NCBI RefSeq assembly: GCF_947623445.1 | Contig: NC_135240.1 | Coordinates: 4,278,001 to 4,342,000, forward strand | Direction of reading: 5' to 3' | Source of the DNA: Clavelina lepadiformis | Lineage: Eukaryota; Chordata; Ascidiacea; Aplousobranchia; Clavelinidae | Length of the DNA stretch: 64,000 bases | Part shown: in pieces, positions 26,968-53,065 of the stretch | How positions within the stretch are numbered: the stretch's first letter is position 1 | Layout of the letters: every line of letters starts with the position of its first letter | Position numbers and translations under genes: made by a program | Notes under the pieces: model-generated | What the model saw: only the letters and a program-made list of their open reading frames with translations | Told to the model about the DNA's origin: nothing | Databases searched by the model: none

Positions 26968-26973
26968 TTTATT
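26968..26973 (-). terminator. Poly(A) signal abutting the POLR1D stop codon
   Basis: On the minus strand the stop codon reads into the hexamer as TGAATAAA, so signal and stop overlap. The 3' UTR would be very short. Confidence 0.5.
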
Positions 26974-29265
26974 CAATGATCCATTACGTCATTGGAGGAG
27001 TTTTGAAGGAAGTTTTGTGTCGACGTCTGCAGAATACAAAGAATTATGAAGAAGAAATTAGAAGTTGCTGAAAGTGCTGGTACGATGGAAACTAACCTCT
27101 AACGTTTCCAAGACATGTTGGCAAATTTCGTCCAAATCTTTCAAACCTTTCCTCAAGACTTCACTTGCGGACGGCCCTGCTCATCACACAAAACAAGAAC
27201 TTAGACTGGCAACCTCAGACTATGGAATACTTTGCATCTGATATAACTTTTGCTTGTGGTGTAGTTTGGAAAAATTTAACTTCCCAAACATATGACGCTT
27301 AAAGCAAAGGTTCATCTATTTTGTTCGTTTCACTCATTTTCAACACAGAGTGGATCAATTAGTTGCAAAGAAAATAATGGCTTTTGTAAGCATGCCATGT
27401 TTACTGCATATACAGTTTAGGTCTTGATGACCCATCTTAGTCCAAAGAAATAACATCCTGGGGAGGCATAAACTTTTGCAAGCAACAATGTGCTAACCTC
27501 TTGTCTGAATCCTCAAGTTGATCTTTTTCTCGGCTGGATGGGGGATGGAGTAGCCACAGAACTCTACATCAGGACTAAAAACATATTCACCTCATTAACA
27601 ATTGAAGTTATGAGGTAACAAAAATCCTCACTTTTTCCCGATGACGTATCGAAGTGCGTTGCCGAGTGTGTGATCTTCGTCGTGCATTATGAATGTGCAG
27701 CATCTGTCCGTGTGGTCATCCTTCACCTGCGTCGAACGAACAATTTTCGTGCTTTATCAACTTCTGCTTTACAAGGCTTAACATGACGCCAGGTGGTGCT
27801 AGCGGGTGACCATAAAAATTATATCACTATTTGCAAAGTGCAGCAGCACACGATAAAAATAATTTAACTTGTCCAATGTGCTCAAATACATCGCCAATAA
27901 TTACCCCACTGAGTCTATGCTATAAGCTGCAGCCACTGACATTCACTGGCAAAGAAATTTGAAAAAATATAAAAAGCTCAAAGCAGGGTCCTTGGTGGGC
28001 GACCACTCAGTAGGTTACCTGTGACATCATAACTTCAGAGTTTAAGTGGTGGCAAACATTTGGCAAGTCTCAATTCTAATACATCACGGACAAATTGGTG
28101 AGATAACGCTTGCTGATGAAGTCACAATGAGCAATTAGCCAAAGACCAATCAATGTGTTGGATGGGGTGCAACAACTTTATGATTCGAAACATTTTGCAA
28201 AGTTTTCTTGGAACTTGTTCCCTGATATGATTACGTCCTCGCTTTGTGCTTTATACAAAGCATTGTGACTTCACTAGGTACCAAAAATTTGAAGTCGTAT
28301 TTTAAAATTATATAATACTTGAATAAATCACCGATTAGAGGATAAGTTACTAAATTTAGACTGTCAGGCAGCAATTTGTACAAAGTTAAATGCACAAGGA
28401 ATTAATCTCGGACGTCCGGCTGCCACCAAATATGGACCAGAGCTTATCATCACCCCACGACTAATTTTTAAAATATTTTGTACAAATCCATATCAGTGGC
28501 TTAATTTGTTGAAAAACTAAACTGATACTCAACATGTCACCAACAACAACCTGTCAGTTACCGAGCTGCGAACAATAGCAGGGTGCTGTTAGAAAATGGC
28601 TGACTGCTAATCAACAAGAGTTCCGCTCTTTTGGTGAAAACCCTGCCCCCAAATTTCAATAAGGGTCGATGAAAATTTTTTTGGGCCCACAGGATTTTTC
28701 GATTAGATGTTAGGTAATACTGTGTTACAAGTGTTGGCTTGGATATACTGTGCTGAAGAAAGATCGCATAGCTGCAAACTTGGCTGGCCGTTGCACACCT
28801 GCACACATGAGTTGGCGTGTCTGCACACGTGAGATTTCGGCGAATCATGCCATGAAGTATAGACTGGGTTGTACACTTCAACAATTAACCCCGAACAATG
28901 TCTGTATCATGCTCTTCTACACCAGACTAGACCTCGGACTGCAGAGTGTGGCCGTTTTCAGCAAGATCTTGCGTGCGCTAAACAACCAATCATGACATTG
29001 GGGGGTTTTCATACATTAAGTGCAAAAATACTCACATTAAAGTGCGCCGTTAATGCTAATGGAAAACAATATTGGGCGTGCTAGTATTGCAAAACTATGC
29101 ACTCTGTACTTGGTCTAGACCTGATTTTGTGAATTAAGATGCCAGTTTCATAGTTTGCGATCCACTGCACAAGGAAATCTTCAATTTAAACTTAAAATGC
29201 AATATTAAGTGACAACAGACCTGTTCCACTTCCAGCTTGCGAACAGCTTTCGTTAATTCTTCCAT
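26973..29265 (-). CDS. POLR1D: RNA polymerase I/III subunit RPAC2 (AC19)
   Basis: Shared subunit of RNA polymerases I and III, partner of RPAC1, and a relative of bacterial alpha. Exons: 29221-29265, 27632-27726, 27498-27574, 27097-27176 and 26973-27026, all phase-consistent, about 118 residues. Diagnostic segment: [20 protein letters not shown], then [20 protein letters not shown] and LRIQTRG, closely following human RPAC2 isoform 1. The C-terminal helix contains [13 protein letters not shown]. The first exon ([15 protein letters not shown]) is short, and its donor is the less usual GTCTGT, so the start is a little less sure. Intron 1 is about 1.5 kb, long for this gene. The protein lacks the alternative C-terminal half used by human isoform 2; a matching protein is coded at 50578-52200. 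Confidence 0.93.
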
Positions 29266-29763
29266 TTCTTTGACCACAACCACCAAACAACGCAATGCTG
29301 CACGCCTGCACGTAACCAACTTCAGCAAACAGGACAATCTGGCGCACAAAAAACCACCGCGTGAAACAATAACCAGCGACTTTTTCCAGGTGTAAAGTTC
29401 TTGCTTGATAATTTCAATGTATCTGTTTGAGTGTGATGATATAACTCTATTGTTTCCTTATCGCGGCAAAACTTAAATATGATAACTGACCAAATTCCAC
29501 TATTACGGTATTCTGGGTCAAATATAGTGTCTAATTTATGAAAATGACTTACGTCAAAGTCTAAAATTCTGTGATTTAATAATAGGCCTATATGCAGATG
29601 ACACAAATCTTTTTGTATTATGTAAAAACTTGAATGACATAATAGCTTATAATGGACTGGTTTGCGGGTTACGATTGTCAAGATAGTCCAACCATTACAA
29701 TGGTTATAACCAGGGCAAGTAATGAACTGGCCATTTAATGAGTCTCAAATTCTCCAGTAGTAA

Positions 29764-31350
29764 CCCTAGAACTACCAGAGGGGTCAATTGACCCTCTGCA
29801 ATTTTATTTTTTAATTTTACAAGAAGTGTTTTTTGCTAGGAACCTCAAACTTTTTTACTTTTATTCTTTCTGGGTATTTGACACATCATCAACACGACAA
29901 ACAAAATTTTTTTCAAAACAAGTGTTTCAGAATGGAAAACGGTGAATTACCACAGGAGTCAATTGACCCTAAGCCGAGAATATTGATTTATTCAGTGGCA
30001 TTTCGAAAAAAAATTTACACACAGGTGCACTACACGTTCCACAAACAAACTTTGAACAGTTACAACATTGTACCCTTGTTTTGTTTGACTGGCATATTTT
30101 ACATTTCGTTCTTTTATTAAGTGGTAATTCTTCATCAGCACGTTCTCTTGCATTTCAGATGAAAAACTTGGGGGACTCTACGTCTTCTGTTTTTCTCCGC
30201 TAAACACAGTTTTTCAGTCAGTTCAATAATAAACTCTTTTTAATTGTTATTTGCACATCTTTGCATATGACGTATGCATCCAGTGCCACAATGTCCAACA
30301 AGTTGAAAAATGCAGCAAGTGGACATCTTCGTTATGCTGCCTTAGTAGAGTAACTAAGCTGCCTTAGGAGCGTTGTAGTCTAGAATAGCCCTTGGTTTCT
30401 TGGCATTATCATCTAACTCCATAACATTGTGAAGTGAAGAAAGTAGATACACTACTTCGTTTTATAACTGAGAAGCATATTATTTTCTGGTGGTTGTGTG
30501 AAAACAAATTTTGAAGTGTACAGTGGCGTATTTTTCCAAGCTGAAAATCAGAAAGAAATTCTCTGCGATGGGATCTGATAGTACCAACTATTGTAGTGTT
30601 CCTCTCAAGTAACTTCCTGTCAAGTGCCAATGACGTAAGATCTACCTAGATCCTAGATCTTACTTAGATCTGCAAGGGAAAAGTTGCTCATCAACTGTAA
30701 CATGAGAATGACGAAAATAAAACTTTTGGCAGTTTTCCATCACTGCATTGCGCAAATCTCGAATTGCCATAAACTTGTCAGATTGTCAGCGACGCTGCCT
30801 TGAAGTTTTCTCATCAAAACGTATGTAATGAATAATTGATTTAAATTTGTTCCTAGCCATAGTTTCCGAAAAATAGATCGAACATATTCTAAATCCCAGA
30901 AATTTGTTAGTGGTTCATCCCTTCCTTTCAAAACTCCTTGAAGAAGACACAGGCCAAAAAACGCTTCCAACTCTTTATTTCTGAGGGAGAAATTGCTATC
31001 CCCTTGTCGCCGAGCTTCGGCTATTGTGAATTTCATAATGTGATCAATGTTTCTATGACCTCACAACTCTTGAAACACGTCTTTTGCATTGTCTACCCGT
31101 GCAAGAACAAACTATTTAGTACCTGGCCTTGTTTGAATTATATTTCGTTTACTTGTACGTCCATTTTGAGGTGGAAACTCAGGTGCCCAAATTGTACCGT
31201 CTCTACTGACCACCTGCTCTCTATTTGGGAAAGTAGGGACAGCATTTTCCGAACTACTTTCTTCTTGCACAACATCCTGCTCTGTGTCAAACTCGTTGTC
31301 AAACAAATCTCACGTATGCTTGGTTCTATCACAGCCAGATTCATCTACTG
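29764..31350 (-). mobile_element. Decayed piggyBac element
   Basis: Left end CCCTAGAACTACCAGAGGGG followed by TCAATTGACCC is a piggyBac-type terminus; the adjoining GTAA is one change from the TTAA target. The minus strand keeps transposase pieces: an N-terminal part near 31112-31344 (DGTIWAPEFPPQNGR, ARN-like RNIIQTRPG), a central part at 30740-31036 (ELEAFFGLCLLQGVLKGRD) and a Cys-rich C terminus near 30000-30120 (TKCKICQSNKT, CCNCSKFVCGTC). The frame changes repeatedly with several stops, so it is dead. The right terminus was not found. Confidence 0.75.
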
Positions 31351-32729
31351 ATGTAGAAATAGTAGATCAATTCCAATGATATTGAAACGTCAGCGTCAAC
31401 TTCCAGTTGATATCTGGATACGTGTTATGATAAGATTCCTGACAGATCTCGGTAGCACTCTGATACTCTTCTTTCAATGGTTTTATTGATAAGTATTGCT
31501 CTGATAACTATAGACTTGATTACATTGCAAATAAGTAGACTGTTGGTGGATGAACACAGAAATTTATTGTAGAAGAATCTGAATTAAAAAATCGGCGACA
31601 CTGGGATTCTTCATCTGTGACTCACAATTAATGCGCTCGAGCAATCGCCCTCACAGATCAGTGTCATCTCGCCCTAATTCTTCTCCGCATAATCGTTCTT
31701 AATATTTCGTTTATTAATATTATTTAGTTTAAATAAATATCGTAACAGATGAGACTTTCGTCATTAGCAGGAGACAATAAGAAAAGATTTTTCTGAATAA
31801 TAAAACTTGAAAACCACTAAATTGACCAATTGGTCAGTTGCCAGTGGTTCAATAATATTGTGACCGGCAAATATAAATGACCTGTTGATTCTTATGTGAT
31901 AAACGTTGAAACGACGTTGCTTGGTGTTGTTCCAGTTGGACCTTTTCACAACCAGAAGTGTCAATTATTAGACAAGACTACGCTTAGTCACTGATAAGTG
32001 TTCATGCGATAAATTGATGTTCGCTACGTAGAGAATTGCAGCTTCTATTTTCGAGCACCGATTGGCTTTGACAACGATTCGAGTCTGGTTCACTTCAGAG
32101 TAGATGACTGACAGAGCTTCGATCGAACTCAGACATATCAGTAATAATGTCTATTATTGAACAAGAACTAATATCTTAGTTCTTCCCACTTTCGCAGTTA
32201 AAAGGCGATTGGATCGAAGTCGAAAGCAAACAACATGATATGGACGGATATATAGGACATAGAAATACACCCAAAATAACAGCAGACAATAAAAGTAAAT
32301 TAATATAATTGGTACAAGTTCATTGGGAAAGATTACTCAAAAATAAGCCGTGGAAACTTTAGGACTACGGCAGCCTACCAGGTCTATTCAAGTATCACAA
32401 TCTTGCCACAACCTCAATATATGGCGACTTCGATACGGTGACATTGTGACTAATACATAAGATTGCAAATGTAGTGAAGTTCTGAAGGAAGCCATAGAAA
32501 TCACCTGTTCGCAAAACTTAAATCGGGAAACCTTTAATGCCGGCATAAAACGCACAAAGCACAATTTACAAGCAAAACTACAAATGTGACGTAATGTTAA
32601 ATATAGAATAGCCAAACGACGTAACGGAGTAGATTGTAAGCTTTGCACATTACGTATAATTCACTATTCTGTTACTTTGAGTATGACGTCAAACACACGA
32701 TGAAAGCAAAGTGTTCGTGGAATGAGCGG
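31351..32729. repeat. Repeat-bearing intergenic DNA, copy 1 of a dispersed repeat
   Basis: Parts of about 31970-32700 resemble 35180-36130. Shared strings include CTACGTAGAG, TACACCCAAA, TTAAATCGGGAAAC and GTGACGTAATG, in the same order and orientation. Edges and class are unknown. No gene is seen. Confidence 0.45.
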
Positions 32730-34319
32730 TCAGGACATGTGTGTCTTCTTCGAATACAGGCCTCCGCTCAGTTTGGCAAGGTAGTTTAGAATAATTTGAG
32801 TTTTCATCAAATTGACTGTGACGTCATAATGAACACCGTCATAGCTGTGAACCTTTTCTCCCAAATCTTGAAAATCTAGAACGTTGATGTTGTTCCTATC
32901 AAAATAACTCCGCATCGATGATTCAAACAAAAGTAGCGATCTATGCTGTAATCGAAGGTGACCGACCGGTTTAAGGAGACCGTTCCTCATGGGGAGAGAG
33001 AAAACAATCTCCGGCCATCTTTTCACCTTTGGCCTCTGACCTCGATAAAATCGTCGGATGAGTTCAACCGCGGGGTCAAGGTAGTGACGTAGGAGGCGGC
33101 TTGCGTTGAAGGAGTTGTGGAAGCCGACACTGAGAACAATGAGGGCGCCTGAACGACCCAGCGTGCTGCGGACGAGTTGGTGGAAGCCGCTTGAGTGTCT
33201 CGCGCTGTAAAACGGCTTCACTGCAGCCCTGAATGTGACGTTCCTATTACGACACAGTCGATTTCTATGACGCATTTCATCGAAATTTTCTACAAGTTGT
33301 CTGCACAAGGAAAGTTCTGTTATTACGTCATTGTTTAGCTTCATGACATCAATTTTCCATTGAACTTAACAAACGGTAACGATCAGGTTGCCATGGTAGT
33401 TATGACGTCACTCAACTGCAAGTCTTCCAGTTTGTGAAAGCGGAATTAGAACACAACGTCATTTCCTCTTGCGTCATATTCTTGCGCCAGGCACCGATAA
33501 TGGAAAGGTCAGTCAAGGTCATGAGCAAGGCCAAGTACATGTCACGGGTGAATGAATCTCCTACGTAATAAATATCATTGTAAGGAGACCCTTCTATGAT
33601 GTCGCAGGCTTCGTCGCTATTGTATCTGTGATAAACACATCTGCAATCACGTGGTGTCCACTCCAGAAGCGCCGCGTAATCGAATGTTCTGGAATCGACG
33701 CAACTGGAAAGAGAAATGTTCGAGACTATAATCCCCAATTACCAAGCCAACCAATCAGAGGGCAGCAACTCACTTCCGGCACTTACAGGTTCTGTCGCTA
33801 GGTGGAGTACACCGCCCCCACCACATATTGCTGCAGCAGGGCCGGTCTCCCCGTCGATCGCACCATTGCCCCACCTTGAGACTGGATGGGGTTTGTCTTT
33901 GATATCTGAATGCATACATTACGATGTCATACAAAGGTGGGATAGAAAACTATACCATGTTATTTGTACTTTGATCTCATGCGGTTTATTACTTACCTGT
34001 AGTACCCACACTGGAACTTGCTGGACATACTATTACGGGGGAATCCCCTCATGACCCAGAATTCTTCCCGCTCTATGTTCAACTTCCTCCGTGCATGATC
34101 CACCCGTCTCTTGTATTCATCCGCTGACGCCTTCGAAGGAAAAATCGGTTGCCTTGACAACCAAACCCCTGACGTAAGATTACTCAAAATATTGTCACAT
34201 TCTGGAATTTGAACTTGAACACCACCCGCGGTAAGAACCTTCTCATTTTGGGCATAACTTCCCATGTTTTGTGACGTAGCAACCAAAAATAATGACGCAA
34301 TAAATATATACTGAGACAT
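32730..34319 (-). CDS. Secreted PC-esterase / SGNH-hydrolase-like protein
   Basis: Exons 33997-34319, 33774-33905, 33417-33703 and 32730-33316 agree in phase and give about 442 residues. The N terminus MSQYIFIASLFLVATSQ is a signal peptide. A Cys-rich segment follows (WCDRRGDRPCCSNMWWGRC, TCKCRNCVDSRTFDYAALLEW). The catalytic-type serine lies in NDIYYVGDSFTRDMYLAL, the GDS block. The C-terminal DGVHYDVTVNLM gives the Asp/His pair expected of block V. Together these suggest a PC-esterase-type acyl-ester hydrolase (NXPE/TBL-like superfamily) acting on glycans or other secreted substrates; the substrate is unknown. The third donor (GTTGAG) is non-consensus. ATG 34367 is an alternative upstream start, less likely because it would bury the signal peptide. 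Confidence 0.75.
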
Positions 34320-34367
34320 ACTAAAACACTCGTCCTTCACAATGCAAAGGTTGAACACACAACACAA

Positions 34368-36921
34368 CCGGCTGACTTCAGCTATTTAAAGGGCGGTATA
34401 AAGTGACGTCACAATGAGAAGATGACAGTGAGTCGCCTCGAGGCGGCCAAGTCGAAGAATTTCTTTCAACTAAAAAGGAGAGAAATCGCTCTTTCGTTGA
34501 ATTTCTCCGCTTTCTCACTAAAAGGCCATCTCGCTTTGCTTGTTTATGACATCACTAAAGCGTCAGCAGCAAGAAAGGAGACATCTTAATGCCCAAATAT
34601 GGCGTTGCGACCTAACCACGAGAAGAGGATGATCCGGTTAAAAATTAAAAACGTTTGAGAATAATTTCTCGTTCATTTGTCAAAATCTTATTTGTTATGA
34701 AAATAAAGTTTTCGGGTCAATGGAGCTTCCAACTTCCACCGCCTCATTCTTAATTCTTAGTTTTTGAAATAATCAGCGGTTCAGGAGAGTTGTTTCCCGT
34801 CCACATCTGCGTCCCCCCAGAAATAAGAGCGCCTGTTGAACTTTCATAGCACAATGAATGACGTTTAGCTACATAGACTATATAGTCTATATGTTGATGA
34901 GCTCTCCCTGACCCACGAGTGCGGCCAACTTGATACTATTTTATTGGCAAATAACATGCGCCGAAGCACAGGCGTAACCTGAAGTGGAACGACGTCGCAA
35001 AAGAGCGTCTGTGTTCTTCGTTGTCTAAAAGACGACTGACTCGGAATGCGAACGGGGGATAAAGAGAAAAAACACAATAATTCTTTGGGCAATTAAACAT
35101 GGTGTTCTGCCGCTATCTAGCGGAGAGGGTGGCGAACGTTACGCTTGTAACCGGACGATATCGTTCATCTGTTGAACCTCAAGTCACAATGACGAATCTT
35201 CTTCAATGATGATCTGGATTGATGATGAATTCGGATCTGACAAGCGATGACGCAAGAGGTTGCACCCGCGTGTGGTTGCTACGTAGAGTATCGCAACTTC
35301 TGTGTAACTTCTGCGATTAATTGTTTTCAACAATCAACGAGTAAAATCTGTTCTCATTACAGCGCCCAGAGGCAGTAACTGCATTACCTTCAGTTCCTCA
35401 GAAGTGGAATGAATACACCAGGAATTTGTACGAGTACACCCAAACAACAACATTAAATGGTCAATAACAATAACAGGTAAATTGATATATAGGCTACTGT
35501 TTGATACAGGTTGGCTGGGAATGAATATTCATAAGCAAAATATGGATAGTTCAGTGACTAACTCGTGAGATTGCAGATGAAGCGGTGATTTGAAGCTTAC
35601 CAATGCAATGCATCAACTGTATATACATGCAATGGTATAGTTAGTTAACTAAGGGTGGTAATGCAGGAACTCGGATCAAACTAAACTTGGATCAAAAATG
35701 ACGTAATCTGATCCGAGATATTCATCCGCCGTTCTAGAATGGAAGACAAGAAGAAGAGATCTCTCGATCGGATCAACATCCTTCGTATATCTGTTGTTAC
35801 TGCCATGCAGACAAAAGTCTCGAATTTTAAATTTATCGTCTATCTTGGATCAGCTGATCCCAGTTTCTGCCCTAACCGTTCTAATTCTTAATTAATTTGA
35901 TAATTATTGGTTGTTGATTAATTGCGGCGGATTAAACAGAAATAACCCGCGCGAAGAAATTAAATCGGGAAACGACAGAACTTGCAATTTACATAAAACG
36001 TCCTGCGCACAACTCATGCGCAGAAACATAAGCGTGACGTAATGGTAAATATGGAATCGCCAAATGACGTAACTGGTTGAACTTGACGTCAAAGACACGA
36101 ATTCATTATTATTATTATTTATTAGGAAATTATCGCATGAAATGTGAAATAACAAAAGCATTTATATACGTCATAAGAAGTATAAGAAACTGATTGTTGT
36201 TGTCATCTGCATTGATATGACGTCACTTCGTCTCGCCCTGGACGCGCTGCTTCGTGTTTATATAGCAGGTCACGTGCACAGATACTTTGTGTGACAATAA
36301 AGCATCGGATCGTCATAAAAAATGTAAATCTCCCAGCAAGTTAAGGTCTACCAGAAAGAGATTCTTAGAAGTAGGTTGTAGAGCAGGGATCGCGCTTTAC
36401 GTCGAGTTAAAATAATTTCTTCGATCTCATGCTTTATTACGTCACAAGTCAACGATAAGAAGAGGATAAATTATGAGCTCATAAATACATGTAGGTTGTC
36501 ATGTTAAGACGCGAAAGTGTTTGCTGAGATGTGTTTGTTCAGAGTCAAGGATTTCGATCTCACAGATTCTGTCATTCGTGTTGGCGCTTGCGATGGCAGA
36601 GGCAACGTCATAATAGTGGCTGTGATATCACAATGCTATCATTTGGTTAATTTAGAGTTGAGAGGAAGTTCTCGTGAAGGTTGAAGCCAGTACGAGGCAG
36701 CATTTGCTCACTTTCAATAAACTTCGCAGTGTTCTTTGAACTTTAAGTCTTTGTGACCGAACAATGGCTTATGTTTAAAAATGGGCTTGACGCTATCCCC
36801 ATTATGACGAAACACTCGAAGATCTCCTTTATAACTTACTCGCTATCTTTAAAGGCCAATCCTAGATTTATTGAGAAATTTTTTTTGGGAACGTTCAAAT
36901 GACATAAATGATTGTGACGTC
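34368..36921. repeat. Intergenic DNA with copy 2 of the dispersed repeat
   Basis: About 35180-36130 is related to 31970-32700. The rest shows no exon. TGACGTCA-type motifs resume in density after 36 kb. This is the space between two divergent genes, PC-esterase (-) and the acidic myristoylated protein (+), so it should hold both promoters. Confidence 0.4.
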
Positions 36922-38671
36922 ATGGGATGTTCATCGTCTGCGCAGAAAGATGTCGTCACAAAGGATACGAAGGGAGGTGAGTTGAAGCTATAATTATGAA
37001 ATTGTTATTTATGTCTACTATTGTTAGAGCACTGTGTCGTCATAATCATTCTTTAAGACGCTTAATCTCATAATTATGACGCAATAAACTTGGAGCACTT
37101 TAATTGAAGTTGATTTGAACTTTGAAATCTGTATCAAGATCTTCATCAGCAAACTGCAGCTCTTATTTGGTCACAATCTCACCATTATTTGTTCATCGGC
37201 GACGATACTTTGTTCAGTTGAAAGATGTTTCGTAGATTCTAGAATCGGCCGTCTTCGATTATATTAAGAATTTATTGCGGGTTAAATCGTCACAAATCAT
37301 CTCCTGTTACGTATTTTCTACATCCGCCGTTGTTATGGAAACAAAACACGTCATATAACTCTTGCGCGGGTTGTAGTGTGGAAACTTTAGACTTGAACTT
37401 TGCACAGACTTTTATTGGATCGGAATATTTGGATTTGCGTCACAATATCAGATAACCTGTGAACGTTTGTAACAAAAGAGTGAAGATAGTGAGGTAACAA
37501 TGCTTCTTTCGAAATTAGTTGGTCGAGATTTATGATTTAATTTATGGCGGTTTTCCGCGACCTACTGCCATTAATATTTAACTTGTGTGACGTAACAATT
37601 TGGCAAACAAAGAGCAATTTCATTCCAATTTTAACATATTTAGTCTGAGCCAATCGCCAGGAATGTTGTTGTTAAACCGCACATTAAGTTTTGCTTAAAA
37701 TGAAGTATCGTTGTGTAGTGTGACGCAATAATGACGTTTCCTGTTTCAACAAAGAGCAGAATTGTCAGAACTTTTCAGTTTAAACGTTCGCTCATTCGCT
37801 GTTAGCAGTCGATTATGAAAAACTAAATGCAGGGCAAAAATGAATTTTCACTGAAAACAGCGCGAAGGTTCACTTTTAATTCTGTCAGCGCGAGTTAATT
37901 GTGACGCAATTAATGGAAAAGAACGCGGTGAAAATCAAGTTAAAGCGAATGCGACGATTGTGGCCTTGAATTAAAATTAAGACGATAAATGGCAGGTGTC
38001 GAGGCTAAAATGACAGGTTGAATTTCCTGATTGCTTGGGGCGAGACAGAAAAGCGGAATAGCGTCGACCATCGATTTATTTAAAAATCGCTGAACATGTC
38101 AGAGACGAGGAGCGCTCAGAAAGTTTAAGTTTGCAGATTCCAGAACTAACTTATCTTTGTTTTGTTCTGTACAGGCTTGGCGCGTGTCCAAGACGCGAAA
38201 AGTAAAATTAATTCAAAAAGTGAGTTAAGAGGAGATAGTGACGTCATAATGGAAAATAAGGAAGAGTTCGAACGAAGTGATCCCGACGGCGCGACATCAA
38301 CGGAGCAGGGAGGGAGCGGAAATGAAGCAGAGTTAGAAGAGGAGGAGGACAAGGTGGAAATGTCTCTGAAGCCGATTGTGACGCAACAGAAGAACCACGC
38401 GACGCAGGCGACGCTCAACTTCGTGTATAAGAACAGTCTCGCCTCCTCGCCCGCCCATACGGGGGGGAATTTCGGGGGCTTGGCCACCGGGGGCTATGGT
38501 AGCCCTGCTCCGTCCCGATATGTTGGAGATAAAAGGAGACCGTCCGGGGTTCCGCCCCCGACCAGGGAGTTCCGTCCCGGAGACTTCATTTTTCAAAAAA
38601 ACTTAAACTCGAGGAATAGGTCAGGGAGTATGGCGGAGGCGGACGAAGATGAGGAAAATGAGGAATATTAA
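36922..38671 (+). CDS. Small acidic protein with N-myristoylation signal
   Basis: Two exons, 36922-36976 and 38175-38671, phase 1, about 183 residues. It starts MGCSSSAQKDVVTKDTKGG: Gly2 with Ser at position 6 is a myristoylation signal, and Cys3 a likely palmitoylation site, so membrane anchoring is expected. The middle is acidic (AELEEEEDKVEM). A Gly/Pro-rich part follows (GGNFGGLATGGYGSPAPS), then REFRPGDFIFQKNLNSRNR and an acidic end EDEENEEY. The MGCSSS start is shared with vertebrate ERICH5 and several other myristoylated proteins, but nothing else was recognised, so no function is claimed. Intron 1 is about 1.2 kb with many TGACGTCA-type motifs. The link between exons rests on phase, the donor GTGAGT and the acceptor CTGTACAG. 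Confidence 0.6.
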
Positions 38672-40520: not shown

Positions 40521-43500
40521 ATGCGCTGCAGCGCAACATCTTTGTTCCTGACAATTGTTAACCTTGTCGGTGCTTATATGTCAACGATTGCTGGATACAT
40601 GGCGCTGGGCGACACTTTGAAGCTGTTCAGGCTGTATGGGCCTGATAAAGGTAGTTATACTGGTTGTTGCTGGGCTCTCTTCATTAAGATAGATTGTTTT
40701 ATTTGATGAAGCGCAGATGTAGAATTCAAGCTTATGCGATTTATGGCTACAGATCGAAGGATCGATTGGATTTGAGCAATTTTTAAACACGTTGAATTAT
40801 TAAGCAGCTTGTACGCAGGCGCAGGCGCTGTATTGTTTAAACTTCTTTGCCTTGCTCAGGGAATGGAAACCCCGCATTGGACGACCCCCCTAGGTACTGG
40901 GTCAACCCAAACACTAAACAGTGGGAGATGATTGACAAGTACAGCCGCGGCAATCTGGTGCCGCAAGTGTAAGTGTTTGTTGTTTTGTTCCATTGCTTTG
41001 TTAAGTGACCTAGACCAAGTGTATCAGGTGATTCAGTCGAAATAATTATACCTTCAATTTATCATTCAGTTTGTCCATTGCATTTGCACTCTTTCGATCA
41101 TTTAATAACATCTTGCTTTGCTGATCGCAAACTAAAGATTCATCAAAAATTGTGGTTTAGCACCGCATAATATAATCGGCCACTCGACACACTTTAAGAA
41201 ACGAAATAAATGTTTGTGTGATGTCACACTTATTGCAAGGATTTCGTTGTGACGTTTGATTGATTTCAAATCGTCCAAGAATTTCAGAATCCATTTTTTC
41301 AATCGTGATGTCACTCGTATAATGTCTCTGCGTGGTAAGGATTTATTTTTTATCGGCGGACGTTGAACTTTGCAACCAAAGTGAATCATTCGTTGCCTGA
41401 AGCACCTACTCGCCAGGAAATGTGGTTAAATTGATTTTAAATTGAACTTATTTTGACTTGGGACTGGTACAGCGGTGTCCGGCCTTTTCCTACTTGCGAA
41501 TTCCAACTACAACACTATCAGGCTGTCTATGAGAAATTGAAGCATAACTCGCCGACCCCAGGTCGGGAAACACTGGACTAAGTGCCCGTGCTATTTGTCA
41601 TCAGCAATTGAATAGTCGATACCATCATCATCGTTTGGAATTTCTGATCCTCGTTTTAAGCTTTCAATACTTTTTTGTGCATTACCTCATGTTATTGTCA
41701 ATTAGCGCTGTTTTTCGTTCCAACCGCGCTAATGATAAAAACTACGTAAATGATTGAATGCCTAGAATAGAATGGTTTAATTTTAAAGGTCTAGGGCGTA
41801 GTGGTCTATCTTCATATCGAAGGCAGACCGGTCATTTCTTGACCGAAGTTATGTTCTTGCAGATTTCAAGGCGTCCAGTACTATCTCATCGCCCTGGCCG
41901 TGTTTATGACAATAAACGCGATCGCTTTCATGGTCGACTCTGTCCGTAGCAAGAAAGCGGTGAACGACAGGACGTACCAGGGCCGACGGACCGGCTTGTC
42001 CGCGATCAGTTGTACCGGATGGGTAAGCAGTTCTCTTTACTTGGTGTAAATTATGACGTCATTATAATTGAATAACATGTGATGTCATCGAAATAAAGCG
42101 CTAATCTTTCTAACCATGATTATATTATGTGTCTATGGAATATAGCTGGCCGGTTATTCCTTCTTCCTCACCATGCTCTGGTTGGTGATGGTGGGGTTCG
42201 GGGTGCTTCCCCTGGTGGAGTGGGTGATCACGATGCAACGATGCTGGGACCTGGACAGCTTCAGCGACGCCTCCTCCCAGTACATCTGCGTCGACCTCGT
42301 ACAATACGGTGCGTGACGTAATAATACTTTGAACTCTGCTTGGCTTTTCTATGCGTGTGACGTAACAATTATTGTAGGTTTGGTCTTCTTCCGGGACAGG
42401 TCCGGGGGAGTTTTCGGGCTGATTTGCGGCAAGGGCCCCATCAAGCGGGGCGACCTTGAGGGTCTGTGCAGTAATGTAAGTTTTTCTGCTTTTATTCTAC
42501 CTTGCGCCGTGTAATATCTGATGTCTATGTTGCAGTACTACCCGACCTTTTCCCTCTTCCTCGCCTCATTCATCGGCTCATGCATCGCGCTTCTAAGCGA
42601 GGTAAGGTCATTGTGGCGTCATAATATCCTTTATACGTCACTTCATTGTTCCTTTGAACGTAATCTTAATGTCAAGCTCTGATAAATAATGACAGCTGTG
42701 TGGCGCAGGCCTTGTTCTCGATACGCCACGCCACAAACTTTGTCTACCTGAAAGTGCGGAGATACGAGAACCCACATGCCCCCCCTGACCCCAATAAAAA
42801 CGCCCCCTACTCCACCTACCCGGAGAGTAACTATGGCAACAGCGTCCCGAACCCGAATTACGAGAACAACGTTCTGCTGTTGGACCCCAGCCAATTTCCA
42901 CGTGATGCCGACGTTGGAAGTTACAGGAAGAGTCCCGGTAAGAGCGATTGTGACTTCATAGTGGGTTAGTGTTGTGGACCCGTGTTGCACGACAATGAGA
43001 TTATTGTGAAAGCGCTCTTGTGTCGTAAACAAGGTATAAATTCCTCCCGACTGAACGTCATAAACAACTTTGTTAACAAATATTTCTCCTCTTGTGACGT
43101 AACAAAGCAAATAGAGACATTTTATCAGCGCCACAGTATTTTTCGTGTGGGTGGATTGTCAGCAAACATAGGGGTGTATTGTGACGTTTTTGTAGATGGT
43201 GACGTCATGGAGATGCGAGAAATGCATTACGGGGAGGGCGACCACCACCAAGCCAGCAGTAAGTACTGTGTCTCTGTGTGTGGTTTAGTGACGTCACTAA
43301 TAGCATTGCTGCGGTGACAGGGAGATACCCAAGTTCGGTGGATGAGTCGGTCCCCTCCTATCCCAAGCGACCCCCCTCCTATAGCGGCAGCACAAGACGC
43401 CACAGACGTAGAAGTCGTGAATCATTTAAAAAGCCGCGGCAATATGACGACCGGCCTTCCAGTAGGGGACGCTATGTATCAAGTGATGACGACAGTGATT

Positions 43501-43745
43501 ATGACGCAAAGATACGTCATAATGAAAGTGATCAGATGGAATCTAGCGACCATGCCCTCTCTACCTCCAGCTACCGGCCGAAGCCATTGAGGCGGAAAAG
43601 TCGCGGTGCCCGGAGCGACCCGGACATTCCGCGCCAATCAGAAAGAAGCAGAAGAAAGAAGTCAAGGAGGCGCGAGGAGTCGCCACCTAGCGACTTCTAC
43701 ATGCAGGAGGACCGGAGAAGACAAGGATCCCGCAGTGTCATGTGA
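40521..43745 (+). CDS. M6: PLP/M6 proteolipid (GPM6-like) with long C-terminal tail
   Basis: Four-pass membrane proteolipid of the family of myelin PLP and neuronal M6. Exons 40521-40650, 40860-40968, 41863-42022, 42146-42308, 42378-42475, 42536-42601, 42709-42937, 43196-43258 and 43321-43745 keep phase and give about 480 residues. TM1 is in exon 1 (TIVNLVGAYMSTIAGYMALG). TM2 is YYLIALAVFMTINAIAFMVD and TM3 is FFLTMLWLVMVGFGVLPLVE. TM4 is TFSLFLASFIGSCIALLSEA, followed by RHATNFVYLKVRRY. The second extracellular loop has four cysteines (QRCW, YICVD, LICGK, GLCSN), as in M6/PLP where they form disulphides. TM3 and TM4 segments match M6 position by position. After TM4 comes a tail of about 220 residues with KRPPSYSGS and Arg/Ser-rich stretches (RRHRRRSRESFKK); vertebrate members end soon after TM4. 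Confidence 0.85.
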
Positions 43746-45093
43746 CCTTTCAACAATCATTTTATTTACTTTTAGTCACTGGAGGGCGCATAGATATGAT
43801 CTGACGCGAACACTGGGTCAGGCGCAGACGCTGTTTGAGATTTCCACAAAAGTTTTGTATTTATCTAAGCGTGGCTATTCCGCGTGTTGTTCGTTTATGA
43901 CGTTTTTGTACAAAATGCAATCGGGCAAAATATAATTTCTTTCGTCACCACCGACATTTGACGTCACGCGTTCTTAATGACATCATACTATAAAGGCAAA
44001 GCAGTCACCATTGTATCAACTGCTTGGTCAATGACGCCACCACCGCATCGAACGTAAATTGCCGGAGGCGATGGCGGCAAATCGTCATTTCTTCACTCGC
44101 TCAATTCGAAATAGAAGTTCACTTGGCGTGACGTGTTCAAAGCTGTTTATGTCATCATAGGGAGCTTTATGACATTGCCAGGCAGAGGTTAAGTTGAGAC
44201 AATTGTAGAAATGTTTTGAGACTATTTAGCCCATTTTTATGTTGCAGGTGAAGTTTTTGTTTAAATTATTTGAACCTGACAAGATGGCGACCCAGGTGAG
44301 TCAATCGTGTTGAAAGTTTGAGATTATTCGAAAACTTATGAGGTCATAATGTGAAGGCATAGCTTGGCTCGCAACTTATCGCTCGTCACCTTCGCGAAAC
44401 TCTCGCATAATTCTGCAGCATTGTCACGTCATACTTGAAAAAAATTTCCACGGTAAAATTCTTCAAAACTTTTGAAACGTGACGAAAATATTTCCCGCAA
44501 CATAAAGATGAATTCATGCGAAGATGGGATAGAGAAGTGTCATTATGACGTATGAGTTACAGAGTATACGTTCACAATAATTTAGCTGCTTAGTAGAAAT
44601 ATTCAACATACAAGATTAGTTGCTATGGGTTACTAGTTCGTATGCTACTGGCTGGGATTTTAAGTTGGACATTTGTGTCGTCATAAAGAAATCTCGGCAA
44701 TTACGCAAATGGTGCGGAAAAATTCACGTGATTATGGTCATAATCCAATAATGTTGTCATGTGACCTCATATTTAGTACATTTGTTTCGCCACTTCATCC
44801 TTTGTGACGTAACAAATGCAGATTAGACCAAGTAGGGGTTTATTGTTACATCACAAAAAAAGCATTAAAACGTCGTCACGCCGAGATATTGCTGCTTTCG
44901 CCTCAGGCCCTGACGGTTTGTGGTGCAGAAGCAGCTGTGACATAACAATAGACGTCGAAGAAGGCGCGGTGAAAGGGAACCTAGGTTGTGTGGGGTCTAA
45001 CAGTGTTCGAGCTTTAGGTGAAACAATTGCGACTTCTTGGTCGCATAATCGATGAATGTCAAGACTTGTTTGTTTTTAGAGCGACAAGCCGCG
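43746..45093. other. Intergenic and 5' leader region, possible non-coding exon
   Basis: No coding exon supported. A short ATGGCGACCCAG followed by a good donor (GTGAGT) near 44284-44296 could be a leader exon of the next gene. Spliced to the acceptor at about 45079 it would read only some 26 codons to a stop, overlapping the main start. Confidence 0.3.
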
Positions 45094-46377
45094 ATGCCTT
45101 CTCGTCGTCCCATTCTACCGGGACTTGGACTCAACAAAATTTTACTGAGATCTCTTCACCTTGAAATGAGACAGAAGAAGATCATCACTGACAACCAATC
45201 AGATTCAACTACGTCAGAGGTCGAAAGCAGCAGCGAAAACAAACAAAATAAAAAAATTGAAACAATGTCACTTGATGCAAAATTGTCCAACCACTACGGA
45301 AGTGACGTAAGCACAACAATTAGCGACGAATCAACTTCAACTACGTCATCCCAAGAAACTCAGCGCCAAACTTCGTCATGGACCAATGAACACTCAGGTG
45401 ACGTCACAGTGGAGGGGAGACCAACCGGGACATCATTTGGCGCAAAAATCGCTGCTTTTAACGAAAAATTTGCCGAAGTTCACCGAAACCCTTCCACCAA
45501 TGACGATCAAGCACGTCATAACGCGAATGAATTGGGTGAAAGTTCTGGGGTTAAAGGTGATGAAAGTGACAGTTCTGTAACATTCCCGCTAGAGAGCGCT
45601 GCCGCGGGCGAAACATTAGCCATAGACATCAAAGAAATGAAGAAGCTAGAAAAATCAGCGAAGCGTAAAATAAAAATAGAGAAGCGCGCAATCGCTGTAG
45701 CGAAAATGGACGTCGCCGAAGCGAAGTTGTCAGAACTGGGCGCGAACTTGCGCGCGAGACAAGCCAGGATCGATGAGCAGCACGCCAAGTTGTGCAGGAG
45801 GAGGGCGGCGATCAAGAAAGCGGAAGATAGACTGGGAATTCTAGAATCTCGACTGGACGAAGAGGAGGAGGGCCACCGTGAAAGAGAGCGACGCGTGAAA
45901 AATCGCGAGAGGCGCGTCAAACAGGAAGAAGCCGGGATCCGAATCAAGGAGGCTTCCCTACGAAAAAGGGAAGAAAAAATAACGGAAAATCTCCAGGTCA
46001 TAGAAAGAAGGCGGATATTGGTTGAAGAAAAAGAGGTGACGTCATCGAGCATGGATGACATCATGAGGCAACGAGAATCTTTACATGAAAACGAGAAAAA
46101 TAGCAGATACAGATCACTTGGGAAGACAAACCACGGAAAAGAGACGGAGATTGAGGGGACCACGCGCCGGAAGCGAAGAGATGAACGGAAGTTTTCGGGG
46201 TCAAGCGGAGTTCAACCAACTCCTACTCCTAGAAGAACGCAGGAAGGGCGCCACCCTGCGGGCCATCGAACCAGTAGCTCTGACGTCATCGGCAACCACA
46301 AACTTCGTCATCAAACAGATTCGCTGCCGCCAAGAAAAGTTAAAGGGGAAGCCCCTAAAGTCGGCCTGTGGTTGTGA
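45094..46377 (+). CDS. Coiled-coil protein, unknown function
   Basis: Single coding exon of 427 residues, not recognised. An acceptor (TGTTTTTAG) lies just before ATG 45094, so a 5' leader exon exists upstream; the frame is also open a little upstream of this ATG. The first 180 residues are Ser/Thr/Asn-rich and probably disordered. About 45620-46040 is one long charged helix (IKEMKKLEKSAKRKIKIEK, RRAAIKKAEDRLGILESRL, RVKNRERRVKQEEAGIRIKE) with heptad spacing typical of a coiled coil. The last 100 residues are basic (TTRRKRRDERKFSGSSG). No signal peptide or membrane segment. Four TGACGTCA-like sites lie in the coding sequence. It faces the syntaxin gene tail to tail, with about 230 bp between stops. 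Confidence 0.75.
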   Translation: MPSRRPILPGLGLNKILLRSLHLEMRQKKIITDNQSDSTTSEVESSSENKQNKKIETMSLDAKLSNHYGSDVSTTISDESTSTTSSQETQRQTSSWTNEHSGDVTVEGRPTGTSFGAKIAAFNEKFAEVHRNPSTNDDQARHNANELGESSGVKGDESDSSVTFPLESAAAGETLAIDIKEMKKLEKSAKRKIKIEKRAIAVAKMDVAEAKLSELGANLRARQARIDEQHAKLCRRRAAIKKAEDRLGILESRLDEEEEGHRERERRVKNRERRVKQEEAGIRIKEASLRKREEKITENLQVIERRRILVEEKEVTSSSMDDIMRQRESLHENEKNSRYRSLGKTNHGKETEIEGTTRRKRRDERKFSGSSGVQPTPTPRRTQEGRHPAGHRTSSSDVIGNHKLRHQTDSLPPRKVKGEAPKVGLWL

Positions 46378-46433
46378 TCCTCTCTTCCATGATTTAACTC
46401 TCGTGACACTGCCTTTATGTGGCTTATATACTA

Positions 46434-46439
46434 AATAAA
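46434..46439 (+). terminator. Poly(A) signal candidate, coiled-coil gene
   Basis: AATAAA about 57 bp after the stop codon at 46377, before the convergent syntaxin gene. Confidence 0.5.
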
Positions 46440-46610
46440 TTAATCAAAGATAAACTTTGTATTATGACGTAACAATCGTGTTTCAAACTAAATAATAACA
46501 CCTTAATTCTTCGTAGAATAAATTACAGAAGCAATTAATAAAAAAGATGATTCAGTAAAAGTTCTGACGACGAATATTTTTGATATGAGAAGATTCATGA
46601 TTTTGATACG

Positions 46611-49530
46611 TCATGTTTTCTGTGACTTCATAATAACTACTTTTGATTGTGGGCTAGCCACCGTGTGTCGTTGTGTGTTCTTGACGGCGACAACGATGAT
46701 GACGACGACGATGGCGAGGAGCAAGATGAGGAGGCAGATGAGGATGAACTTCTTCTTTCGATATTTATCCTTCAACTTCTCCGCCTTCTTCAGCCGCTGG
46801 TTCCCAACTTCGACGTAATCCGAAGCCATGAGCACGTGCTGCTCGATGACGTCAATCATGGCACCCTGCTCATCCACCATTGATGACATCATAAGGAACG
46901 CTTTGGAAAGCTGGGTAATTTTCCGCTGCATGATTCAGCAATAATTAGTATAAATGAAGTGGAATGACATCACAATGGATATTATGACTGACCTCGAGGA
47001 GTAAAATTTCGTTTTCAAAATGAGCGACTTGGTTGAGTTTGGATCTCATCTCTCTGCCAACCTCCGCGTCATCTTTAATGTCAGCGTAGAGAAGCGGAGT
47101 GCTTTCATTGAATAACCTTAAATCATTTCAACAATCGCAAACATTTGTGATGTCATATATAACTGTTGTTAGTGACGTAATGACAAACCTTCCGTCCAAC
47201 TTCCCCCGCTCAGGATAAATTGGCCCCAAGATGGAAAGTTGTCTCGCGACCTTCCGCTGGCAGAGCTTCTGGTACTCGCTCTGTTCATGATAGAACCCAC
47301 CCACCGCCTGCGTAAGCCTGGAACAAAAGTTACATTTATTCTGCCAGCACTAGTGATGTCATTGGTTTATCACAGGTTATTCAGCTTTCAATGACGTCAT
47401 CAAGTTGTCAAGCTAGTGATGGATAAAAGACCAAAAATACTTTTTATTACACAAATTATTTGTTTTAAATCGATCTAACGTCCGAGAAGAACAACGGAAT
47501 AATACTTTCTTCAGTGTTTGACAAATTATTAAAAATGTTCCAACAAAATATACACAACGAATTGTCGAAGTGACCACTTGATTGCATTTGCGTTGTCATA
47601 AAAATAGACTCATAGGTACGCAAACAACCTAAAAGTGTTCTTTCAAATTATAATCTCATGCTCAGTGCTTATATTTTTGTTCATTGCTACCAATGGTTAT
47701 GATGATTATAAAAACATTAAGCATTTGGTCAATTCTCTAAAAATGGCCAAGACATTAAGAAAATTGCCGATCTGGCGAGCCTGGGCGTAGACACCTGAGG
47801 GAGAGCACAGAATGCAGAAGAAATTTCATTCGGACATCGACGGGCACGAATCCTACCGGGTGCATCCAGGGGCATGAAACCTTGAAATGTAATCAACATT
47901 GTGAGGTCACAATTGGCAGTCTCTGCGCTTTTGACGTCATTCCAGCTTATCAAATCAAACCTCATTTAGGAATCTATTAGCTGAAGATCTGCAATAGTTA
48001 TAACTTACCATCTGAACGGACGACGTTGATTGCTGCCATCTAATTGTGACATCATTATGGTTGCCAGTGATACTGCCACTGAGTGGCCAATAGCGTAATT
48101 TATCCTGATCACTCATTTCCATTCGATGAAGAATTGATTTCGTCTTGCGAGCAAGTGCTTGGAACCTGTCAGTGGTGGAACTGATCTGGGAGAATATCCG
48201 TCGTTAAACTCAACATCTACGAAATTTCATGAGATTGTCTTCACCTTTTTTCTGCGTTCATTTGCGTTAAATATACTTGGACAGGTCACGACCTCACGAT
48301 GATGAACTTTTAACTCCTTCAGCATCGACTCCAGCTCACGCAGAAATTTCAGGGACTTTCCCGTCTGAGGAAAGTTGCAACGAAGAAAAATGAAAAATTG
48401 TGAGTAACTTCACTTTCCACACAGGCCAACCTTTTACAAAATTAAAATACGGGACCATTTGCCTTTTTCTGCAAAGATGGGGCCACCAACAATAATCTAC
48501 GGCAAAGACCAACCCTACATGAATGTGTCCAGCTGATGCAAGTTTATGTGACTTGTAGCTCCTCTTTTGAAAGGTCACCGCCTTTAACTGGCATGTTATG
48601 AAGAAGAAACTTTTGCCGACATAAACATAACATAACCTGCAGAACCATTAAACTTGGGGGTACTTTACAGTCACAGCATGGTGGTGATTGTAATAGCTCA
48701 TACTTCCTGACTCAAAAACAAGGCATTGTCTTGCAACAAAGTGCTGCATTGTTGGGTCATCGAGAAAACAATTCTGGCCAATACCAGTGGTTCTGACCGG
48801 CTAACTCAAGCCACATATTTTAATATTTCCGCAGTTTTCATTTGCTTCAGTTTTTTCCAAACTATTGACTGAGGCGACAGCGTAGATTCTTTTTACTAAT
48901 GACAGTACATTTTCTGCTCAATAAATTATATAAGCGACACTCTCTTAATCATGCAGGTTACTCTTCATTCTTTGATTTTATAGCATTGGGCTTAGCACAA
49001 TACTGCCATAATTTTTCGAAAGCATCGTGCGCAATATTTCTACTTCAACCAATTTAAATTTCTGGATAATATTCTTGCTGCAATACGACGGCTGGTGCTC
49101 GCTGTTTTACTGTCAAATGAGATATTTTTCTTATTTTAGACAAACAGGCCTTAACATTAGCAGCAAATTGTCACTTCAAAGCAATGTCGGAATCTTTTCC
49201 ACAGAAATAAACATTCGAGTGTTTTGTGGTGACATCATGAAGCGATTTCAAATTTTTGTCAACCGTAACTGCATTAGTCAGTTTTTTAAACAGGATTTTA
49301 AAGGTGACACTATTTTTTGCCCCTGACAGCGCTGATAGCAGTTAAGGGCGAATACACGGGAAAATATTTTAACGCAAAAACCCAAGTTTGATGTCTTCAC
49401 TCACCCGCTGCAGGAGAAGATCGGTTTCATCTTCCATGGGAAGTTCCTCCTGATACTCGGGCTCGTGGTACAACGATGGATCCTCCTCGTGAAGTCGGAT
49501 CAGGTCCGGCAATCGATCTCGAATCATCAT
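46611..49530 (-). CDS. Syntaxin (Qa-SNARE)
   Basis: Membrane-fusion t-SNARE. Exons: 49405-49530, 48245-48364, 48113-48185, 48009-48039, 47189-47317, 46993-47116 and 46611-46925, phases consistent throughout. The start MMIRDRLPDL resembles the MRDR/MKDR start of plasma-membrane syntaxins. The Habc region includes FLRELESMLKELKVHHREV and RFQALARKTKSILHRMEM, then LTQAVGGFYHEQSEYQKLC and RKVARQLSI. The SNARE motif has SKAFLMMSSMVDEQGAMIDV with the central-layer Gln in EQGAMID, then IEQHVLMASDYVEVG. The basic KKAEKLKDKYRKKK precedes the anchor FILICLLILLLAIVVVIIVV. An unusual lumenal tail of about 20 residues follows the anchor. The protein is divergent and paralogue assignment (STX1-4 or 11/19 type) is not possible by eye. 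The 31-bp exon is inferred from phase. Confidence 0.85.
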
Positions 49531-50577
49531 CAACCTGCATCAGCACTTATTAATAGACATCACCTAAACATACCACTTTCTCATATATGCTTGAACATCT
49601 TACACAAAATCAAATGTTAAAATCTGACTGCTTGCATATCTCTGCCATATTAAGAAGCCTGAGTTCCTTAAACCTGAATATTTGCCAAAACTTATTTGCA
49701 CTTCACCAAAGAAAATTCCAAACAACTTCATGAACAGCAAAAAAGTAGAAGTTAGCCCAACGCAGTTGTATTGGAACAGACACGCTTGATAACGAGCTCT
49801 TGTTGAGGAAAGCCTCACTTCCTTCCTTGAGCCATTTATCACGCGCCGCATATGGTCGGCCACTATCCATCCAACACAAGGCAATGTCGGCTCGTCATTG
49901 ATTAAGAGCAAAACATGAATATTTGCGATACAGGAAGGAACTAATGGGACGGACATCAAAGCTTGTCGTTAACAAAAACACAAATAAAATATATCTCACA
50001 GAATTTTCAATTCAAGTTTTTGTGTTAAGAGAAAATAAAACATTTCTACTTTTTTAATTGAGACGTTTTCATCTGATTCACAACGGCACAAGCTACACAT
50101 AGGCTAAGAAATGAAAAAGCTCTGGTTAAGCCACATTTTACCACCATTTCGTTAAAACACAAAAATACACGGAACAACATTTGTCCTTCATCAGAACATA
50201 GCATGAATGACTCTTAAACGTTTCATTGCACAACGTCAACTATTTCATTCAATGAATGCTCTGACAAAACACCAACATTGGCAGAAGCATGTAAGCTTTC
50301 TAATCAATAGAAGGTTTACAACAGCTTTTGTAGCGCTAGGTGCAAGCACTTGGCGTGTAAAAATCAACTAATAAACTTTTTCCATTGCAGCAAACTAAAT
50401 GTCACTTGCACAGAAAAACCTGCCCGTTCATCCCATTAGTGGTGTCATAAATATATACCAGCACTCATTGAATAAACACCTGATATATCATTGTATGGTC
50501 TGCTTGCTAAGTTGAGCTGCTCAATAAAAACTGCGACCTACATGGGAACAGAAATAAAAAATACACAGCAGTCATTT

Positions 50578-52200
50578 TCAAATTTTCCTCACCCCTTTAT
50601 TATTTGATTTTCTTTTCTCTTTCTTAACTTCTTCGTTCGTTCTCGCAGACTTTGCACTTCTCGGATATTTGGAAGATTTTTCTCCATCAGGGAATTTTCT
50701 TTGAGTATGATGTCTTTGCGAGAGTTGTGACTCGTCACTGTCACCACCATCACGGTCGCTTTTTCGTTTCCTTTTGTCGCCTCCCTTCACCTTCCCCCCC
50801 ACAATAATGGAACTTGCAATCGTTCTTTGAAGAAATCGTTTGTTTGCAACGGGAACCAGACTTTTTCTCCTTAAACATAGAAAAAACAGATTTATTTTAC
50901 AATATTTTGAAAAAATTGACAAACAATCGAAAAGGGCAAAATATCACAGCACATTCAGGCAACATGAGTCACAAATTCTGACGACCAACCAACTCAGATG
51001 CGCCTTACAAGTGCCCACCTATCTTAAACAAACCATTGTAGGTCCCTCCTATTCAAAAAAGAAAACTCAGTTCAGAAACAGTGTAATTTTCTTTCTGGGC
51101 ACTTTCTGCAAGAAATCTCAAGCCCTCAATGCCTGTCAGTCAAACCTACTGTACCAAATTACTTGCCCGTGTGTCATAAACATTACGTACATCAAAACTA
51201 CAAATCTTCACGATGGCCAAAGCCCATGGGACTTATACATGTAGAATTAACCACGACATGCAATGCAAGCACTGCAAAACCAAAGACATCAACATATTAC
51301 AACAAGTAGAAGTAACAAATTTTTCTATACAACTAACCAACATCCACACTAACTTGCATGTCTTTAACAATGGAAGATGCACAATTTTTAACACGCTTGC
51401 CAGATAACAATATTCAGAAGTGAAATTAGAAAAGTTGTGTAGTAAGCAAAGTGTCATGTAAGTGTATTTGTGCACCTACTTCAGTACGACAGGTGCGAGC
51501 TTAAAAAGTTCAACTTCAAGTGACATCTAACACCATGACAGTTTAACATAACAGTTGAAGAAAATGATGCAAATGTGTGTGAGTCTGGTACAACTTATAC
51601 AAAGTCAAGAATGACAACTGACAACTCAAATTGTCTTAGAGCATGATTGTGTGCTTTTAAACAAAAGAAATTATTAAGCAATATCCAAAACGGATTCTCG
51701 TTCGTACGTTCTCGGACTTTTCCCGACGATGAACATTGCGTTACATAGCACACATATCAGACTTCTTGAAACACGTGTCATCACACACTGGCCCTATTTA
51801 TTCTTTGGTGCGACACAAAACTGTGGTTGCTGTCACATTAAAATCCATTCAAGCTCACAATAATCGATACTTGTGCAGAGCAGCAACTATCGCATTTAAT
51901 GAAACCACGAAAAATAATTGACATCTACAACAAGATAAAATCAGAAGATTAAAGTCTGATGGCAACAGTTGTAAATAGAATAACATCGCTTCCAAATATG
52001 GGAGTCACAGAGTGCTATAAATTCAATGAACTATAATTCTCATCCTTGGCCGATGGAAACCAAACATTGAAATCAAAGTAGCACTGATGACATCATAATT
52101 ACCATCCACTAGGGCCCATGCTTTTCGCCCGTTCCTCGCCACGCTTGGCCTCACGCAGGAGTTCCTCCTCAGCCATCTTCTCAAGGGTTTTCTTGTCCAT
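50578..52200 (-). CDS. Stand-alone homologue of human POLR1D isoform 2
   Basis: Two exons, 52103-52200 and 50578-50869, phase 2, about 129 residues. Exon 1 reads MDKKTLEKMAEEELLREAKR then GEERAKSMGPSG. After the splice comes W-RKSLVPVANKRFLQRTIA. Human POLR1D isoform 2 has EELLKEAKRGKTRAETMGPM followed by GW and ASTNKRFLINTIKN, so the match runs across the splice site. The remaining tail is basic, low-complexity and rich in Lys/Ser/Arg (KGGDKRKRKSDRDGGDSDES), as in the human isoform. It has no RPAC2 polymerase fold. Its biochemical role is not established. The true RPAC2 gene lies at 26973-29265 on the same strand with several other genes between. The intron of about 1.2 kb has few TGACGTCA sites. 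Confidence 0.82.
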
Positions 52201-52561: not shown

Positions 52562-53065
52562 TGTGATAAATATATCACTTAATGTAATATAAAATTGTGT
52601 ACTACATAGAATTCTCATCTATGGAATCAGTGAAGCATAACACTGCGTGACGCAATCAACAGCTTACCCTGTGCGTGCATTTTGATTTGTGATAAATATA
52701 TCACTTAATGTAATATAAAATTGTGTACTACATAGAATTCTCATCTATGGAATCAGTGAAGCATAACACTGCGTGACGCAATCAACAGCTTACCCTGTGC
52801 GTGCATTTTGATTCATTCAGTCTTTTTGGTTTTTACGTTCAACGCCGCAACATGTCTCTGTGCTGTTGCTGTTATAATGTTCTATCTTGATGTATTCGTT
52901 CAAAGAAGCTTCAAATATAATCAGATTATACAGTAGTCATTCCTGTGTCATTATTGCTGAAGTCTATCAAAGTTCACTGTTGAGATATACACAAGGAAAC
53001 AGACTTTGTAGTGTAAGTGGGCAAACCTTACAGGCTAAGGTAAGATATACCACCTTTTCATTACA
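52562..53065 (-). mobile_element. Solo LTR, same family, copy B (minus orientation)
   Basis: On the plus strand it begins TGTGATAAATATATCAC and ends CATTACA, the reverse complement of the family's TGTAATG...CACA ends. A perfect 4-bp duplication AACG flanks it (52558-52561 and 53066-53069). The outer 126 bp is tandemly repeated (52562-52687 and 52688-52813). No internal region is attached. A fossil. Confidence 0.8.

Follow-up and report, generated by a model that had tools for sequence, protein, structure and literature searches.

Mammals make two unrelated proteins from POLR1D; must the two come from one gene? One of them, RPAC2, is the small subunit of Rpb11 type in RNA polymerases I and III, where it partners RPAC1. 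The mammalian products are listed as RPAC2 (P0DPB6) and isoform 2 (P0DPB5), and the isoform 2 protein is reported from the nuclei of human HEK-293 cells (both from excerpted text of PMC12249828). In excerpts of a study of mouse genes (PMC3616865), the two Polr1d products share their start and the second uses "two additional exons" at the end of the gene; they are therefore hard to study apart. POLR1D is also a Treacher Collins gene (PMC12816837, abstract). Here we analyze both proteins in 64,000 nucleotides of the ascidian Clavelina lepadiformis (assembly GCF_947623445.1, contig NC_135240.1, positions 4,278,001 to 4,342,000 of the forward strand). This whole stretch is referred to as the window, and positions are counted from its first letter.

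RPAC2 and an isoform 2 relative are predicted as separate genes

RPAC2 and a relative of isoform 2 are found in the window as separate minus-strand gene models that have their own start codons and stops, with a poly(A)-type signal (AATAAA or ATTAAA) after each stop. The models were built from genomic DNA, using reading frame, splice sites, and similarity. Because transcription proceeds toward lower coordinates, the isoform-2-like gene is the upstream member of this same-strand pair. The coding exons are as follows.

52103-52200, minus strand: isoform-2-like coding exon 1, 98 nt, from the ATG (context GCTGCGATGG) to GGATG/gt, with a phase-2 donor
50578-50869, minus strand: isoform-2-like coding exon 2 and stop, 292 nt; one ATTAAA at 50058, about 520 bp past the stop
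29221-29265, minus strand: RPAC2 coding exon 1, with its own ATG (context AAAGAAATGG) and a phase-0 donor; its placement relies mainly on frame, splice site, and ATG context, and less on similarity
27632-27726, minus strand: RPAC2 coding exon 2, placed by similarity and recovered in the assembly search too
27498-27574, minus strand: RPAC2 coding exon 3, placed by similarity and the assembly search
27097-27176, minus strand: RPAC2 coding exon 4, placed by similarity and the assembly search
26973-27026, minus strand: RPAC2 coding exon 5 and stop, the least certain exon; AATAAA at 26973 and 26689

The two ATG exons are separate in these DNA-level models, at 29265 and 52200, and a shared first exon of the mammalian type is not seen. 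The mammalian order is likewise absent: the isoform-2-like exons lie upstream of RPAC2 and none lie downstream, and no other copy was found in the assembly at E ≤1. The two ATGs are 22,935 bp apart, and about 21 kb lie between the genes, in a genome of 209 Mb. For a named pair, the chance of such close linkage is about 1.1e-4 on the same strand and about 2e-4 on either strand. No relation is seen between the two kinds of protein, because their cross-scores fall below the shuffle mean; the two window proteins score 22 against each other (shuffle mean, 26.5), and the isoform-2-like protein falls below the shuffle mean with human or window RPAC2.

A reading of the sequence alone had already placed the two products in separate genes, and the individual start codons, the individual stops, and a syntaxin open reading frame (ORF) between them bear this out. 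That reading overlooked two features that bear on the choice among fusion, split, and coincidence: the isoform-2-like gene precedes RPAC2 on the same strand, and the two are tightly linked. Cis-splicing could not produce the transcript it proposed to look for, joining 29221-29265 to the exons at 50578-52200, since 29265 is downstream of them.

The RPAC2 gene

The five RPAC2 coding exons (29265-26973, minus strand) join in frame across GT-AG introns and encode 116 amino acids, in agreement with the earlier description of a complete gene at 26973-29265. The product matches Pfam RNA_pol_L_2 at 4e-30 and the human RPAC2 chain 7a6h_K at 2.2e-33. Exon 5 is the least certain, because exon 4 can be read through its donor to an alternative 111-amino-acid end with a stop at 27058. 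In alignment, the window protein is 14 residues shorter at its N terminus than human RPAC2. Its codon-usage score is 11.5, compared with a maximum of 2.3 among 1000 presumed non-coding stretches; the codon-usage model was trained on six other window ORFs, not all of which have a family match. Exons 2 to 4 have their sole clear assembly match at this locus, and one further weak match (1.4e-4) is probably RPB11. The assembly search (209 Mb) scores the best candidates only, so that copy counts describe what was found.

RPB11 was considered as the identity of the window protein itself and rejected (1.4e-13, versus 2.2e-33 to human RPAC2). The end of the intron before exon 2 (27733-27753) reads in frame as TKIVRSTQ, a faint likeness to exon 1 that is probably due to chance. 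On the plus strand, ORFs at 23969-25716 match RRM in three stretches (2e-34) and also carry a DND1-type double-strand RNA binding domain (3.9e-11), and we take them to be of the A1CF/RBM46 type; they stop about 1.3 kb from the RPAC2 stop.

The isoform-2-like gene

The isoform-2-like gene consists of two coding exons separated by a 1233-bp GT-AG intron, with the junction inside the tryptophan codon of GPSGW, and encodes 129 amino acids. Its start exon had been described as spanning 50578-52200; the gene does have an ATG exon of its own, and that span resolves into two exons. The frame contains an in-frame stop upstream of the ATG, with 18 codons between.

The earlier claim that this protein aligns with human isoform 2 also held. 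Against a version of the human sequence not taken from a database record, the local score is 154, a value reached by 0 of 2000 shuffles (mean, 40.5; standard deviation, 6.6; maximum, 73). The best block, over LEKMAEEELLREAKRGEERAKSMGPSGW, has 19 identities in 28 residues, and the N-terminal block motif of isoform 2, AKRG..RA..MGP.GW plus NKRFL..TI, is present. Similarity is confined to the first 50 or so residues. The tail is hard to align and basic, with Lys and Arg making up 32% of the final 74 residues, and the protein as a whole is very basic (isoelectric point, 10.4); as a guess from this composition, the protein probably has a nuclear nucleic-acid-binding or nucleolar role. The whole gene has a codon-usage score of 18.0, compared with a maximum of 2.3 (95th percentile, −6.9) for the same 1000 presumed non-coding stretches. 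In the assembly, its exons were found only at this locus at E up to 1.

Pfam and NCBIfam gave no family for the protein, and scans of viral and prokaryote contigs with its first 54 residues gave 25 and 442 pattern matches, respectively, none of which was confirmed by tblastn. The sole PDB match, a TetR regulator (E = 0.53), was taken as chance. Upstream of the gene, about 360 bp from its ATG, a 126-bp sequence is directly duplicated in two fully identical (100%) copies (52562-52813); this duplication is either very recent or an assembly effect. A LIM-domain-binding protein (LDB) ORF follows about 4.3 kb upstream of the gene (56516-57661, minus strand; LIM_bind, 2.7e-27; LID, 3.3e-10).

Separate genes as possible ancestral neighbors

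Taken together, it is very probable that RPAC2 and the isoform 2 relative are two separate same-strand genes here, not coupled by splicing; their linkage is probably an ancestral remnant. The first part of this interpretation, two products predicted as separate genes, is well supported by the genomic anatomy. Each gene would be transcribed from a promoter of its own, or would receive a leader at a 5′ end of its own, and this would uncouple the two proteins from alternative splicing in this lineage. RPAC2 would do its usual job with RPAC1 in polymerases I and III, as expected from the biology of its family.

It is very unlikely that the locus is instead one transcription unit, in which splicing joins an unseen upstream exon to one product or the other over about 25 kb and the other genes are nested in introns. 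The strand and order of the genes permit a common upstream exon, and acceptor-like sequence is visible by eye 5′ of both ATGs; however, RPAC2 and the isoform-2-like gene have separate first-exon ATGs, both in good context, the isoform-2-like frame is closed by the stop 18 codons before its ATG, and the syntaxin ORF lies on the same strand between the two. A Ciona-type leader motif (the sole leader tried) is absent from the window.

The linkage itself could be coincidence, two unrelated genes lying close by chance, as the pair was noticed since both fell in one window and about 21 kb and other genes separate them. We consider this unlikely, given that the chance for the named pair is only about 1e-4 on the same strand, or 2e-4 if either strand is allowed. 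Because of that low chance, the two genes were probably neighbors, or fused, in an ancestor, and their close same-strand linkage is probably a remnant of that neighborhood. We lean towards neighboring genes that fused in vertebrates, ahead of an ancestral shared gene that split here, with chance linkage last. That two neighboring ancestral genes acquired a common first exon on the vertebrate lineage has about an even chance. The fuller history, in which the two products were neighboring independent genes in early chordates and the vertebrate gene is an exon-sharing fusion whose second gene lost its start exon and passed under the control of the RPAC2 promoter, falls somewhat short of even.

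The split is a less likely alternative. Here, an ancestral shared POLR1D gene, as in mammals, would have undergone tandem duplication in this lineage, followed by complementary exon loss (function sharing). Same strand, close linkage, and reversed order would then be explained in one step, with each gene keeping a short start, and paralogues that divide ancestral splice forms are described in a review (PMC5306129, in excerpt). However, the window showed no obvious exon remnant: tblastn at E ≤20 gave, besides the exons, only matches at E of about 0.7 or worse. When aligned with each other, the two proteins do not reach the mean score of shuffles, and their starts are not recognizably alike. Great age could erase exon remnants and start likeness alike. 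Fusion and split are fair alternatives, and we favor fusion only slightly, on weak arguments: the human shared start is short, presumably adding only some ten residues, and window RPAC2 is 14 residues shorter at its N terminus.

Several points weigh against our interpretation. The human isoform 2 query was not taken from a database record. In exon 2 alone, the coding frame has a codon-usage score of 3.7, whereas the two remaining forward frames score 3.9 and 8.6, and over the whole isoform-2-like gene, frame 2 scores 17.4 versus 18.0 for the coding frame; codon usage shows the coding-like composition of this gene and not its frame. Models built from DNA are compatible with unseen 5′ exons common to both genes. 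The linkage chance applies to a pair that was picked because both members fell in one window, and the direction of change rests on little, from one genome. Finally, human LERK residues, which we take to belong to the shared POLR1D start, align with the isoform-2-like gene's own first exon, and this fits a split as well as a fusion.

Comparison with the mammalian locus

The ascidian and mammalian loci encode the same two proteins, and the two coding exons of the second product here recall the "two additional exons" in mouse. Unlike in mammals, the start is unshared, the second product lies upstream rather than 3′, and at least one other gene separates the pair.

Neme and Tautz (2013; PMC3616865, in the excerpts seen) list mouse Polr1d among overprinted genes, with exons acquired at the end of an older gene, call the two-product arrangement "highly conserved," and date the second product to ps5, older than their ps8 chordate class. 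The mouse "overprint" and the present locus share the protein pair and a second product older than chordates; here, in contrast, that product is a free-standing gene. The protein's pre-chordate age by this dating tells nothing about the age of the arrangement; here the protein occurs without it, and for this lineage the locus runs counter to a "highly conserved" arrangement. Function sharing between splicing and duplication (excerpts of PMC5306129, citing Cusack and Wolfe 2007) offers another parallel, in that the products of one gene are found in separate genes, although no trace of duplication was found for the pair in this window.

Among the matches listed, which leave subscription journals mostly outside their scope, only Neme and Tautz (2013) addresses the origin of the two-product arrangement. 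No paper was returned when peptides of the human proteins were searched for as text. In a term search of the available text of a zebrafish Polr1d paper (PMC4957770), the words isoform, splice variant, transcript variant, and exons were absent, and the excerpts of a Drosophila nucleolar-stress paper (PMC7197718) contain nothing bearing on the arrangement.

The shared mammalian arrangement therefore does not appear to be universal. Separate genes suggest that coupling of the two products is not needed, and a genome of this kind is a system in which each product could be removed alone. The published claim of conserved overprinting becomes a question for outgroup genomes. If fusion in vertebrates is true, a case of de novo "overprinting" becomes one of gene capture, and the coupling of both proteins in one disease gene becomes a vertebrate novelty. 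Many invertebrates may have free-standing genes annotated as "protein POLR1D-like"; if they do, separate genes are ancestral and the finding is less special than it looks.

Genes between and around the pair

At least four genes had been placed between RPAC2 and the isoform-2-like gene. When ten intervening ORFs were scored against Pfam cut-offs, one passed (the syntaxin), three gave weak matches under the cut-off, and six had no match; one gene is thus established by this measure, and the original count is plausible. The intervening features that could be placed are as follows.

46614-46934, minus strand: syntaxin ORF with a SNARE domain and membrane anchor (SNARE, 1.2e-11; syntaxin-1A, 1.2e-8)
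32733-34385, minus strand: NXPE-like model (Pfam, 0.041, under the cut-off), with pieces joined by eye
29972-31060, minus strand: transposase fragments, piggyBac-like by eye, with a cysteine-rich end (DDE_Tnp_1_7, 0.01, and B-box-like, 0.025, both under the cut-off)

Further syntaxin exons were guessed by eye, at about 49539-47000. The transposase fragments lie just upstream of RPAC2. A U1-type zinc finger ORF between the genes scores 6.2e-4, under the cut-off, and a 442-amino-acid ORF there has no family match.

Scans of the window gave neither a tRNA nor an Rfam match at gathering score, and COX1, sought for the ascidian mitochondrial code, was not found in the 209-Mb assembly. Beyond the pair, an ORF at 59271-59951 (227 amino acids) resembles by eye the start of a hAT/ZBED-type transposase, with no Pfam match above the cut-off. 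A plexin-repeat (PSI) ORF at 17832-18740 (plus strand; 1.1e-4, just under the cut-off) is semaphorin-like by eye, and an ORF at 63637-63999 (minus strand) carries a Nup54 C-terminal domain (3.9e-9).

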